The position numbers were made by a program, and so were the translations under genes. A DNA stretch of 25,878 nucleotides from a virus: positions 1-25,878 of the IMG/VR virus record IMGVR_UViG_3300011013_000075, one strand, 5' to 3'. The notes under the pieces are model-generated. The model was not told the origin of the DNA. It worked only from the letters and a program-made list of their open reading frames with translations, and ran no database searches. Below, in pieces: positions 19,333-22,782 of this stretch (the first letter of the stretch is position 1; each line of letters opens with the position of its first letter).

Positions 19333-19471
19333 CTTGTATCATCATTAAGTTTAATTTTATCATTTTCAAATCATTCACTATCATTCGTTTTGTTAGCTTT
19401 GCTGATTTGTTTTCTGCTTTAGATACTAACTGCGCAGCTATACCTAAAGTTTCTTTAATTAGTTTTTCCAT
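19298..19471 (-). CDS. Small helical protein, 57 aa
   Basis: The ATG at 19469-19471 has an excellent GGAGGTG site four bases upstream, the strongest ribosome binding site in this operon apart from that of the methyltransferase. The product reads MEKLIKETLGIAAQLVSKAE, then NKSAKLTKRMIVNDLKMIKL and NLMMIQDDITRQPKQKD. It is almost entirely predicted helix with a Met/Leu/Ile-rich second half. It begins inside the end of the methyltransferase gene and ends 35 bases into the helicase gene. No family is recognised. It may be a helicase- or DNA-associated accessory factor, or its translation may feed ribosomes to the poorly initiated helicase; both ideas are inference. Confidence 0.6.
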   Translation of the reverse strand: MEKLIKETLGIAAQLVSKAENKSAKLTKRMIVNDLKMIKLNLMMIQDDITRQPKQKD

Positions 19472-20348
19472 TCATCACCTCCAAAATTATTGTTCCGATG
19501 TGGTAGGGGATTTGTGGGACGAGACTGTTTCCGAGACACTTAAGTCTGTCCACCCTGTTGGATATCCCATCAGCCACTCTACCCACGTTGGGTTCAACTG
19601 CCCAGTTGTTTTCTCTCTTCCACCCTCTGTATCGATCACTATTGTTGATAAACTTTTTTGTGTGCCCTTCTTCCCGGTATCCCTTCTTTGATAACCCAAT
19701 CTCGCTTCGTGAGCTGCCGGGGTTGGCCACAGTCTTGGCTCTCTTACTTGATCCGCCAATCTGATTTGTATTGTGTGACCACTTTTTCGTTTTAGATGGC
19801 CCTCGGCCAACGACTCTTTGATCTTGTTCAGATTGCTCCCCCCGGAGTATGCGTCTGGTGTTCGCCACAATCCAGACTCTTTCTCTTTTGTGTTTGGCAC
19901 CGACGCTAGAAGCTGAAATACTAAACGTCCTTGCGGAGTAGTCTTCACTTTCCAAGTTCTCGAGTACGGTGTCGAGACCGAGTTTAATGTGTCCACTAAC
20001 ATTTTCTCCAATAACCCAAGTTGGTCTGAGTTCTTTGATAAGTCTAAACATTTCTGGCCAGAGGTGTCTTGGATCTTCTTCACCTTTTTTTCTACCTGCG
20101 ACGGAGAAAGGTTGGCAAGGGTATCCTCCTGTGATGATGTCGATGGGAAAAAGTCCATCTGCTTTGAGTTTTTCATAATTCAATCCCTTAATATCTTCGT
20201 ACTGCTTAACATGTGGCCAATGTTTTTTCAGCACTTTTCTTGAATACAAATCTATATCACAAAAAGCTGCGGTTTCAAAACCACCAGTGGCTTCAAGTCC
20301 AAGACTAAACCCACCAATGCCACTAAATAAATCTAAATGTTTTAGAAT
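19455..20348 (-). CDS. C5-cytosine DNA methyltransferase (Dcm/HhaI type), apparent ATT start
   Basis: The 297-aa protein has motif I LDLFSGIGGFSLG (5-17), motif IV GGYPCQPFS (74-82) with catalytic Cys78, motif VI ENVSG (115-119), motif VIII KRERVWIVA (154-162) and the motif IX-X region ending CLGNSLVPQIPY (271-282). It should transfer methyl from S-adenosylmethionine to cytosine C5; the target site is unknown. The frame before LDLFSG has no ATG, GTG or TTG down to a stop at 20403-20405. The only well-placed candidate is ATT at 20346-20348, seven bases after AGGAGG, giving I/M-L-K-H-L-D. A TTG farther in (20247-20249) would delete motif I. The hydrophilic region 165-245 is also read in another frame. 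The role is probably protection from restriction. Confidence 0.93.
   Translation of the reverse strand: MLKHLDLFSGIGGFSLGLEATGGFETAAFCDIDLYSRKVLKKHWPHVKQYEDIKGLNYEKLKADGLFPIDIITGGYPCQPFSVAGRKKGEEDPRHLWPEMFRLIKELRPTWVIGENVSGHIKLGLDTVLENLESEDYSARTFSISASSVGAKHKRERVWIVANTRRILRGEQSEQDQRVVGRGPSKTKKWSHNTNQIGGSSKRAKTVANPGSSRSEIGLSKKGYREEGHTKKFINNSDRYRGWKRENNWAVEPNVGRVADGISNRVDRLKCLGNSLVPQIPYHIGTIILEVMNGKTN
19487..20176 (-). CDS. Overprinted 229-aa ORF nested out of frame in the methyltransferase gene
   Basis: This frame is open for 229 codons on the same strand as the methyltransferase and wholly inside it. It does not look like noise: it contains TWKVKTTPQGRLVFQL (74-89), SGLWRTPDAYSGG (101-113), LWPTPAAHEARLGYQ (149-163) and LNPTWVEWLMGYPTGWTDL (194-212). 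I recall a phage and prophage family with the same order of motifs (TWK...RLxFQL, LWPTP repeats, LNPxWVEWLMGxPxGWT), often found beside or overlapping cytosine methyltransferases; this is from memory. The ATG at 20174-20176 has AGGGA about seven bases upstream. Function is unknown. It could be a true second product, or a composition effect that recurs because both frames constrain the same DNA. Confidence 0.45.
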   Translation of the reverse strand: MKNSKQMDFFPSTSSQEDTLANLSPSQVEKKVKKIQDTSGQKCLDLSKNSDQLGLLEKMLVDTLNSVSTPYSRTWKVKTTPQGRLVFQLLASVPNTKEKESGLWRTPDAYSGGSNLNKIKESLAEGHLKRKSGHTIQIRLADQVREPRLWPTPAAHEARLGYQRRDTGKKGTQKSLSTIVIDTEGGREKTTGQLNPTWVEWLMGYPTGWTDLSVSETVSSHKSPTTSEQ

Positions 20349-21883
20349 GGTAAGTCCTCCTTTTCTGATTCCATATCCGGAACAGGGAGCTTTGAGATTC
20401 TTTCAAATGCTTCTGCGCCTATCTTCCACATTCTACTATTTTTCTTATCTGCTTTTCTAACTGCTTGATCAGCCCCAAGTTCTCTTAATCTTGCAGCGGT
20501 TCTTATTGTATCATAGCCTCTGAATCTTTGCTTATCTAAATATTGTGTTAAGAACTTCATTTTAAAATAAATGTATCCATCTTCATGATAACATTTGCCA
20601 TAAGCAACTTCATCCATTGTTTGAGCTTTACCTAAATCATTTACAAAAGAATGTAAGTGCTCATCAAATCTACCATCTAATGTTGTATCCTCTGCTAACT
20701 TTTCTATTTGTGCATTTTTAGCCAGCTCTGTTAATCTTGCTTTCCAATCTTTCTTTGTCATTTCAGGTAACACAATATTGATTTGATCAAAGCAGGCTTT
20801 TGCAAAAAGATTATATTCAAATAAATCGTTTGATCTTATGCGCACTTGTTTTTTATCTATCGTTATGTACCAATAAGAATTTTCAGTTTGATATTTTTTT
20901 ATATCTGTAAAGTCATATTCAATGTCTCCCTTGATACCAAACTTTCTTAATCTGCATTTTGGCTCTACACAGTAATTACACATGGGTCTTGTCTTACACA
21001 TGTAACCCTCGTATTCTTTGCCCTCATGAGATTTAATTGTTTTTGTTACCTCCTTATATTCCAAAGGTGGTTTCATGTATTTATTATTAAAATCATTTAC
21101 TTTGTTTTGCCAAGTGTCTGGCCATTTCTTTTTTGCATAAACAGAATAATGAAACAAAGCATTATCACGCCCTGCATTAGGAGTATCCGGGTCCATGCCC
21201 TGCAATACTCCAACCTCCATTAATTTTTCTATACAAGGTGGACCATCAAAACTATCTTGTTTTTTTGATGTCTTTATTTCTAAATTTTCAAGTTCTTCTT
21301 TTGTAACTTTATACTTGTCATATAGATCAAAGAACTGCTGCAGATCAGCACTACTACCATCGTCCAAATAAGCGTAGCGCATAGTACTAGAAGCATTAAA
21401 GTAAGGTAGATTAAGCCAAGACCCAACATCCCCACGATCTGAATTAACTTCGACTTGTTTAGGAAATATTTCACAGTTCCCATGACCCAAGCTTGCAGCT
21501 ATTTCCTGTAACTTGTCTACCACAAGTTTTGCCGGAACTAACTCCGAGACAAAAATAAATAAATGTGCACCACCACTTTTTGAACGACATGGTACTAATG
21601 GTAATTTATTTTTTCTGATTTCGGAAATTATTTTTTTAATATCTAAAGGATAAGTATCAATATCAATACAACCCCAAGTGCAATTGTTATCATCTCTAAT
21701 GGGGATACTGCCCAACGATGGCGCCTTACCCTCAAGATGATTTTCCCATAGTGCATCTGATAAAGCACCTCTTTTAGTAATTGCAACACCATCTACCTTC
21801 TTTCCCTTTGATCCACCTGCTGTGTACTGACCATATGCCCTGTCTAACCCTGCGAATACTTTTTTAAATTTGTTTATGTCCAT
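20342..21883 (-). CDS. AEP-type primase (primase-polymerase), TOTE/PriCT-like, 513 aa
   Basis: The N-terminal 170 residues show archaeo-eukaryotic primase motifs: CIDIDTYPLD with D74-x-D76 (metal ligands), RSKSGGAHLFIF (100-111) with His107, and CEIFPKQ (137-143) followed by GSWLNLPYF (154-162). A linker and a PriCT-like helical segment (GRDNALFHYSVYAKKKWPD, 238-256) follow, then four Cys (296, 302, 305, 310) in CKTRPMCNYCVEPKC that probably bind zinc or a cluster. The C-terminal 190 residues look helical, and the tail is acidic (DMESEKEDLPF). The enzyme would make primers for the polymerase encoded downstream. Its ATG lies directly after a structured leader (21884-21997), and the gene end contains the Shine-Dalgarno sequence of the methyltransferase. 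Confidence 0.88.
   Translation of the reverse strand: MDINKFKKVFAGLDRAYGQYTAGGSKGKKVDGVAITKRGALSDALWENHLEGKAPSLGSIPIRDDNNCTWGCIDIDTYPLDIKKIISEIRKNKLPLVPCRSKSGGAHLFIFVSELVPAKLVVDKLQEIAASLGHGNCEIFPKQVEVNSDRGDVGSWLNLPYFNASSTMRYAYLDDGSSADLQQFFDLYDKYKVTKEELENLEIKTSKKQDSFDGPPCIEKLMEVGVLQGMDPDTPNAGRDNALFHYSVYAKKKWPDTWQNKVNDFNNKYMKPPLEYKEVTKTIKSHEGKEYEGYMCKTRPMCNYCVEPKCRLRKFGIKGDIEYDFTDIKKYQTENSYWYITIDKKQVRIRSNDLFEYNLFAKACFDQINIVLPEMTKKDWKARLTELAKNAQIEKLAEDTTLDGRFDEHLHSFVNDLGKAQTMDEVAYGKCYHEDGYIYFKMKFLTQYLDKQRFRGYDTIRTAARLRELGADQAVRKADKKNSRMWKIGAEAFERISKLPVPDMESEKEDLPF
20356..20361 (-). promoter_or_regulatory. Consensus Shine-Dalgarno AGGAGG that fixes the methyltransferase start at ATT
   Basis: On the minus strand AGGAGG lies inside the last codons of the primase gene, exactly seven bases before ATT (20346-20348). 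The spacing is ideal, and no standard start codon stands in the right frame nearby. The primase TAA at 20342-20344 follows within two codons, so reinitiation by terminating ribosomes is likely. Confidence 0.7.
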
Positions 21884-21997
21884 TGTTTCTCAAGTAATGC
21901 AGCCCTACGACCATGCACGGGAGAAACACTTAGATTGCAGAACCATGCACGGTCTAACGAAGAGGGCTGAACTCCGCTCTTTACTCCTCTGCAACCT
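21884..21997 (-). ncRNA. Candidate structured leader RNA / cis-regulator of the primase gene
   Basis: This 114-base gap between the SSB-like and primase genes is about half G+C by my count, well above its surroundings, and holds no convincing gene. Read on the minus strand, P1 pairs 21997-21988 with 21941-21932 (10 bp). Inside it, P2 is a hairpin at 21981-21960 (7 bp with one bulged C) and P3 a hairpin at 21953-21942 stacked directly on P1. Three bases later P4 pairs 21928-21921 with 21891-21884 (8 bp) and encloses P5, a second copy of the P3 hairpin (21920-21911). G-U pairs in P1, P3 and P5 would be A-C mismatches on the plus strand, supporting a minus-strand RNA. The 3' arm of P4 abuts the primase ATG and contains its GAG. 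Confidence 0.55.
21910..21952. repeat. Two direct copies of ACCATGCACGG, 32-base period
   Basis: Copies lie at 21910-21920 and 21942-21952 and are identical over 11 bases. On the minus strand each folds as CCG-TGCA-TGG, with a self-complementary TGCA loop, so the two could pair loop to loop in RNA. As DNA they could instead be a pair of protein-binding sites (iterons) next to the primase gene. Two copies are too few to call an origin. Confidence 0.6.
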
Positions 21998-22002
21998 GAC
22001 CT

Positions 22003-22782
22003 TTAAAATGGTGGGTTATCTTTTGATGTTTTATCTTCCTCCATTTCTGGTTGAAGCTTATCTTTAGCTGCACTCATATCTTTAGAAAAAGATGATGCCT
22101 CTTTAACATGCGCTTCACTTGAAAGTGTTGAGTCTAACTCAACCTTCCATTTGTACCAGGTTTTGTCTCCATTTTTAGCTTTCTCAGATTTAAGAAAGTA
22201 AGAATGGGACCACATAGGTGGTGTGAAATACTCTCCATTTGAACCTGCAATCTTAAGATTTTTCATCTTACTATTCCAGTTTCTACTTGGTGTCAGTTGT
22301 GATGACTTCATCGATACCACTGCTTGACTTGTTTCACCCTTTCCCCCAATGATCAACACAAAGTAATTAGCAGTCTCTTCGATGTAATTACCCGAGTTGT
22401 CATTCTTATAAAACTTTCCATCATCAGCACGTATCGTGTCATTCATGACTTCTTTAGATTGGTGCACGGACACTGGCCCTTTTGCACCACTCCCAACAGG
22501 AGCCCACTCAACATATGTTTTATGATAGACACAAGGTATAACCTTAACACCTTGTTCACTAGGCCATGAATCTCCTGTAACAGAATTAAGAATCTGACCA
22601 GCTCGTAGAGCTTCGTCATTTTCTATTTCTGGAGACATAGCTTGTAAAAGTTTTAATCGAGGAAGCTGCAGATCATCTGCACCCATCTCTTCAAACCCTG
22701 TATCAGCTCCTTCGAACTGAGACATGATCGCAACAGCAGCACTGCCATTACTCTTCGTTTGTACTTGTTTCTTTTTAGTCAT
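22003..22782 (-). CDS. Putative single-stranded DNA-binding protein, 259 aa
   Basis: The protein has a polar N-terminus, a conserved-looking LQLPRLKLLQAMSPEI (38-53), a beta-rich middle (GVKVIPCVYHKTYVEWAPVG; NYFVLIIGGKGETSQAVVSM) and an acidic, flexible tail ending EEDKTSKDNPPF. An acidic C-terminus closing with an aromatic residue is the hallmark by which SSB-type proteins recruit partners in bacteria and T7 (gp2.5). I do not see a classical SSB OB-fold signature, so the call rests on the tail, the beta-rich core and the place in the replication operon. A GAGGT six bases upstream supports the ATG at 22782. Alternatives are another replication or recombination accessory factor. Confidence 0.55.
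   Translation of the reverse strand: MTKKKQVQTKSNGSAAVAIMSQFEGADTGFEEMGADDLQLPRLKLLQAMSPEIENDEALRAGQILNSVTGDSWPSEQGVKVIPCVYHKTYVEWAPVGSGAKGPVSVHQSKEVMNDTIRADDGKFYKNDNSGNYIEETANYFVLIIGGKGETSQAVVSMKSSQLTPSRNWNSKMKNLKIAGSNGEYFTPPMWSHSYFLKSEKAKNGDKTWYKWKVELDSTLSSEAHVKEASSFSKDMSAAKDKLQPEMEEDKTSKDNPPF

Follow-up and report, generated by a model that had tools for sequence, protein, structure and literature searches.

A conserved pseudoknotted RNA element at the junction of the SSB-like and primase genes in a marine phage clade

Gene context of the intercistronic gap

The window, that is, the whole stretch of DNA that was analysed, is a virus record of 25,878 bases. On its minus strand, a Pam3 gp33-like gene and a Pam3 gp34-like gene (22003-22782) precede a gap (21884-22002) and an AEP primase gene (20342-21883); a cytosine methyltransferase, a UvrD-like helicase, and a family A DNA polymerase follow in this order on the 3' side of the primase. 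The initial annotation had described a 114-base gap of about half G+C upstream of the primase. Both the gap and its composition were confirmed (G+C of 50% vs. 37% for the surroundings), with a length of 119 nt, i.e., five bases more than described. The gap was read on the strand that carries the upstream gp34-like and primase genes, and its last eight bases (GAGAAACA) abut the primase ATG.

20342..21883, minus strand: downstream gene, AEP primase (phrog_21866 primase, E 5e-90; PF22548, E 4e-11)
21884..22002, minus strand: intercistronic gap with the RNA element (119 nt; covariance model R1)
22003..22782, minus strand: upstream gene, Pam3 gp34-like protein, putative SSB (PF23977, Pfam E 4e-54)

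The gp34-like protein also matches phrog_2402 (unknown function), and its structure model bears a weak resemblance to SSB OB folds, the fold search having returned weak matches alone. We treat it as a putative SSB based on its acidic tail with a terminal PPF, an identity that is otherwise unproven. Acidic tails closed by PF occur on both the primase (EKEDLPF, 20342-20365, minus strand) and the gp34-like protein (DNPPF, 22003-22030, minus strand) and resemble the C-terminal tip of bacterial SSB; in locus L010, both proteins end in IPF. Beyond the primase, in the region 19455-20290 (minus strand), one strand carries two long frames that overlap: the first is a C5 cytosine methyltransferase (PF00145), and the second (19487-20176, 229 aa) matches phrog_1008, DNA methyltransferase (E 1e-29). 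This stretch has an unusually high G+C content (0.49), the overlap is also present in L010, and the arrangement looks like dual coding. At 20230-20420 (minus strand), the conserved start of the methyltransferase frame (KHLDLFSGIGGF) lacks an ATG, and the frame extends from inside the end of the primase gene; therefore, a rare start codon or translational coupling may be involved.

Architecture of the RNA element

Based on the comparisons described below, it is near certain that the minus strand of the gap specifies a conserved pseudoknotted RNA of four helices (P1, 11 bp; P2, 12 bp; P3, 7 bp; P5, 6 bp). The helix strands in the window, as derived from comparative pairing, and the other features of the element are as follows, in 5' to 3' order of the RNA.

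21987..21997, minus strand: P1 5' strand (AGGUUGCAGAG), which begins 5 nt past the upstream stop codon
21972..21977, minus strand: P5 5' strand (GCGGAG; GG invariant)
21963..21969, minus strand: P3 5' strand (CAGCCCU), within the P5 loop
21957..21962, minus strand: P5 3' strand (CUUCGU; UC invariant)
21955..21956, minus strand: UA joint between P5 and P2, with the A invariant and unpaired in the alignment
21943..21954, minus strand: P2 5' strand (GACCGUGCAUGG)
21932..21942, minus strand: P1 3' strand (UUCUGCAAUCU)
21921..21928, minus strand: clade-specific P4 5' strand (UGUUUCUC) in loop L3, 8 bp in L083, L084, and L087-L089 only
21909..21920, minus strand: P2 3' strand (CCGUGCAUGGUC)
21900..21906, minus strand: P3 3' strand (AGGGCUG)
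21898..21899, minus strand: CA immediately 3' of P3, invariant in the alignment
21884..21891, minus strand: clade-specific P4 3' strand (GAGAAACA), a weak primase SD, not significant across lineages

From 5' to 3', the element consists of P1, a purine-rich linker, P5, 2-4 nt, P3, P5', UA, P2, P1', L3, P2', two nucleotides, P3', CA, the leader, and the AUG. P2 and P3 are crossed by P1 and P5, which makes the fold a pseudoknot. The strand formed by P3, P5', P2, and P1' is nearly continuous, and its partners come in turn from the 3' side (P3', P2') and the 5' side (P5, P1). Positions that are invariant or nearly so include GG in P5, UC in P5', the A preceding P2, the outer C-G pair of P3, one U-A pair in the middle of P1 and another in the middle of P2, and the CA after P3. 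The upstream stop codon is followed by P1 at a distance of 0-5 nt in every case, and the distance from the end of the element to the primase ATG is 14-24 nt. In type B elements (L099-L116), loop L3, between P1' and P2', retains UCAUUUA or a near variant, and this sequence may make groove contacts; some type B elements (e.g., L105, L111, and L112) have an additional hairpin in L3.

This architecture retains parts of the fold initially proposed, which comprised a 10-bp outer stem enclosing two hairpins in a three-way junction and a further 8-bp stem enclosing another hairpin. The outer stem is real and conserved as P1 (10-11 bp), and the GCGGAG/CUUCGU hairpin is conserved as P5. The three-way junction was wrong: the small hairpins counted there are two near-palindromic strands (CCGUGCAUGG) that together form P2, a mutual pairing of 10-12 bp present in all homologues, and that show little self-pairing in most. 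The long-range helix P3 (CAGCCCU/AGGGCUG) was absent from that fold. The 8-bp last stem (UGUUUCUC/GAGAAACA) can form in the window, and otherwise it is confined to the nearest relatives, the five loci listed above for P4.

Comparative evidence for the fold

Homologues were gathered by primase and gp34-like searches in IMG/VR, and their primases are 100% to about 45% identical to that of the window. The loci that keep the element (27 listed, corresponding to 26 distinct sequences) formed the basis of the alignment. In all 27, the element lies in the same gap between the same two genes. Every element-bearing homologue can form P1, P2, and P3, even though the helix sequences differ widely; for example, P2 is formed by GACCGUGCAUGG/CCGUGCAUGGUC, GAUUAUACGUGU/GCACGUAUAAUC, GAUUAUAUAUAA/UUAUAUAUAAUC, and GAUUGUAUGCGU/ACGUAUACAAUC in different homologues. 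Changes on both sides were found in 22 of the 30 pairs of the MAFFT alignment (A1), with 190 double-change cells compared to 67.5 in shuffles and 10-50 with slid partners, P1 being undercounted in both tallies due to a shift of one column between types A and B. Within type A alone, 96.2% of cells were paired. With the shift corrected, the proportion of paired cells over the 26 sequences was 96.2% for P1, 92.9% for P5, 96.2% for P3, and 98.1% for P2, whereas a null model in which the inferred substitutions were placed at random on the tree gave a mean of 59-64%.

A check of related loci upstream of AEP primase genes for covarying pairs had been suggested, and they show such pairs: about 34 compensatory double changes were counted on the tree over all helices together, compared to about 3 expected (P1: about 6.5 vs. 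0.9; P5: 3.4 vs. 0.4; P3: about 10 vs. 0.6; P2: about 14 vs. 1.0). Within P5, L090 and L093 show changes from A-U to G-C and from G-C to U-G. Using a strict, tree-aware test of single pairs (a home-made G-test similar to R-scape), two pairs reached E<0.05, one in P3 and one in P2. So few pairs pass because the sequences are few and related, which lowers the power of the test, and the support therefore applies to each helix rather than to each pair. The cells of P2 include 31 G-U and 0 A-C combinations, identifying the minus strand as the RNA strand, and the initial deduction of a minus-strand RNA from G-U pairs was thereby borne out.

Folding energy gave a modest signal. The 114 bases initially delimited have a minimum free energy of -35.6 kcal/mol (z = -1.54), which was equalled by 15 of 200 shuffles, and the plus strand of the gap gave a similar value (z = -1.44). 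Three crossing helices of at least 10, 10, and 6 bp in the observed order arose in four of 3000 dinucleotide shuffles.

Distribution and RNA family searches

In the window, covariance model R1 matched 21898-22002 with 92.6 bits (next best: 8.1), and a single copy was found per genome, including a 60-kb record. A scan of IMG/VR viral contigs with a pattern of the core and P3 returned 20 matches, of which 19 were real and belonged to this clade and one was due to chance. The same pattern matched 39 sites in 84,980 species genomes. One of these is real (L171:4054-4224): it has the same flanks as L117 and lies on a contig of 8,445 bases assigned to a Bacteroidetes MAG (isolate Ww421), probably a misbinned phage contig. 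The other 38 served as chance-level controls, in which P2 has 3-7 bp, compared to 10-13 bp in real elements. A second search, using the SSB-like protein of L116, recovered the same phages. The element was found solely in one marine phage clade, always at the SSB-like/primase junction, and it is vertically inherited.

Rfam 15 yielded no matches at gathering thresholds in the window or in 16 homologous loci, and at E values up to 10 the matches were at chance level. The search of the element for tRNA and tmRNA found none, and isolate phages in the collection showed no DNA similarity to it. The initial claim of a structured mRNA region outside known classes is strongly supported, as is its conservation. 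By every test applied, the element is a new RNA family; the kind of role it plays is probably known, and its architecture is not.

Hairpins at the same junction in relatives

At the same site, five listed close relatives (L103, L106, L114, L115, and L118/L009) have a plain G+C hairpin followed by a U-run. The leader after this hairpin (L103, L106, L114, L115, and L118), AGCUGUCU(C/U) followed by the start codon, is nearly that of type B elements. A G+C hairpin also separates the gp34-like gene from the primase gene in nearly all of the more distant primase relatives; some of these hairpins have a U-tract, whereas those of L026, L028, L043, L045, and L051 have none. Among isolates, DSL-LC04, 023Pt_psg01, and HTVC027P have a hairpin in the gap as well, and the gap of HTVC023P comprises a few bases with no structure. 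Three isolate-phage hairpins (L132:7826-7870, from DSL-LC04; L198:1750-1801; L200:1816-1867) are unrelated in sequence and mostly without a U-tract; their phages are distant kin of this clade, and the hairpins lie between the gp34-like and primase genes. With hairpin phages as the outgroup of the primase tree, two changes are needed between pseudoknot and hairpin. One gain and one replacement would be likelier than two gains because the core is shared.

Proposed role and alternative explanations

The position of the element just past the SSB-like stop codon and its exchange for a simple hairpin point to a function at the 3' end of the upstream mRNA at least as much as to one in a primase leader. 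As the reading we favour, though tentatively, we propose an intercistronic mRNA element that sets the expression of the SSB-like gene relative to the primase operon, probably as a 3' structural barrier. Within a polycistronic phage mRNA, it would raise the SSB-like message over the downstream primase-helicase-polymerase message, mainly by leaving the SSB-like message, after the primase part has been cut away, with a 3' end blocked by a hard structure, as the hairpin of the relatives would. A ribosome terminating on the SSB-like gene must disturb P1, since this helix begins 0-5 nt after the stop codon; its opening would probably tie folding to translation of the SSB-like gene, which the element may thereby report. 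The simplest task shared by the fold and the hairpins is intercistronic structure, because they trade places and the hairpins often lack U-tracts. By stopping 3'-5' exonucleases, hairpins that lack U-tracts shield the upstream gene in E. coli operons whose parts decay at different rates (PMC5927463). A stable structure just past the upstream gene, with no U-tract required, is what such a 3' stabiliser calls for. Like intercistronic stabilisers of the malE-malF type, the candidate described here closely follows an upstream gene, in many cases lacks a U-tract, and lies between genes required in unequal amounts; those stabilisers are simple hairpins, whereas the element is a conserved multi-helix pseudoknot. 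Against a barrier, the gap of HTVC023P holds no structure, and four crossing helices with roughly twelve near-invariant positions, retained over a primase spread of 47% identity, exceed what a plain barrier needs. Conservation of both fold and core suggests a specific, fold-dependent activity. We give some weight, well below that of the barrier, to a new class of fold-dependent RNA, such as a phage ribozyme or a protein-sensing pseudoknot, with an order of four crossing helices not seen before, that would split or switch the replication mRNA at the SSB-primase boundary.

The same excess of conservation keeps two specific activities in play. It is rather unlikely, though plausible by precedent, that a phage replication protein (SSB-like or primase) binds the pseudoknot and blocks primase translation. 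SSB proteins of T4 and RB69 bind a pseudoknot 5' of the ribosome binding site, which for T4 gp32 acts as a nucleation site (PMC535899). The element shares with this operator its place in a phage replication mRNA, a pseudoknot 5' of the ribosome binding site (14-24 nt before the primase start), and an adjoining putative SSB gene, and some of its near-invariant positions are unpaired. However, the T4 operator comprises about 28 nt before the start of the SSB gene itself and is followed by UUAAA repeats, whereas the element has about 100 nt and four helices, follows the SSB-like gene and precedes the primase, and has a short leader without such repeats; moreover, close relatives manage without it, and the SSB identity of the gp34-like protein is putative. 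It is unlikely that the element is a new small ribozyme whose self-cleavage parts the SSB-like from the primase message. Its compact pseudoknot, near-invariant core (GG, UC, A, and CA), and phage intercistronic site are consistent with such an activity, and it interchanges with a hairpin that would also create a 3' end. The HDV ribozyme has the order P1-P2-P3-P3'-P1'-P4-P4'-P2', and the element (P1-P5-P3-P5'-P2-P1'-P2'-P3') differs from it. Although HDV, twister, and pistol ribozymes also combine compact crossing helices with conserved joints, their strand orders and core sequences are unlike those of the element, and no Rfam ribozyme was matched in the window or homologous loci. A hammerhead, permuted forms included, was rejected because the CUGANGA and GAAA core is absent as a conserved feature from the 26-sequence alignment. 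At about 100 nt, the element exceeds the 50-80 nt that the authors of one study expected of candidates, and none of the ten ribozyme candidates tested there cleaved (PMC10085705).

It is improbable that the fold acts as an attenuator or terminator that pauses or releases RNA polymerase and lowers primase transcription. In some relatives, the site is occupied by a typical intrinsic terminator, and 4-6 U follow P3 in several type A elements, but this U-run is absent in type B, short in the window, and missing from several of the hairpins at the site as well; an intrinsic terminator, in which a U-tract immediately follows a G+C hairpin, does not describe an element whose U-run after P3 varies from 0 to 6 and is not conserved, and none was called in the gap of the window. 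Riboswitches and DNA sites are less likely than the operator and the ribozyme. We consider it very unlikely that a ligand-sensing, riboswitch-like leader gates primase translation, as the initial annotation had inferred from its last stem. A conserved pseudoknot does lie directly 5' of the start codon, and in the nearest relatives of the window the GAG ahead of the ATG is masked by the 8-bp stem. Conservation does not extend to this stem, and pairing between the leader and L3 did not differ significantly from that of mismatched lineages (p = 0.07). In many homologues, no SD can be recognised in the leader (e.g., L093, L099, and L116), relatives with a hairpin share the SD-less leader (AGCUGUCU-AUG) without having the element, and the element is limited to one phage clade and one gene pair. 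H-type pseudoknot riboswitches (such as preQ1-II and SAM-II) have crossing P1 and P2 helices near the start codon; the element resembles them in this crossing and in an optional hairpin in the 3' loop (type B), but differs in its additional helices P3 and P5, its single phage gene pair, and the lack of an Rfam match. Least of all do we expect a DNA element (a replication origin or a protein site) whose inverted repeats merely resemble RNA helices. Although the gap lies among replication genes and contains two copies of CCGTGCATGGT, it is the pairing of these copies, not their sequence, that is conserved, and the excess of G-U over A-C cells in P2 is that of a minus-strand RNA, not of DNA. A frameshift or readthrough pseudoknot fusing the two genes was also rejected, since homologues differ in gap length modulo 3, with all three values represented.

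Significance

With this element, the known repertoire gains a well-supported RNA architecture missing from Rfam. Time and again, compact pseudoknots of this kind have proved to be ribozymes or regulatory switches. The junction also offers a natural comparison, because related phages differ in what they carry at this one site, a simple hairpin or an elaborate pseudoknot. This swap makes the benefit of the extra structure testable, whether it lies in stability, in cleavage, or in regulation through a replication protein.
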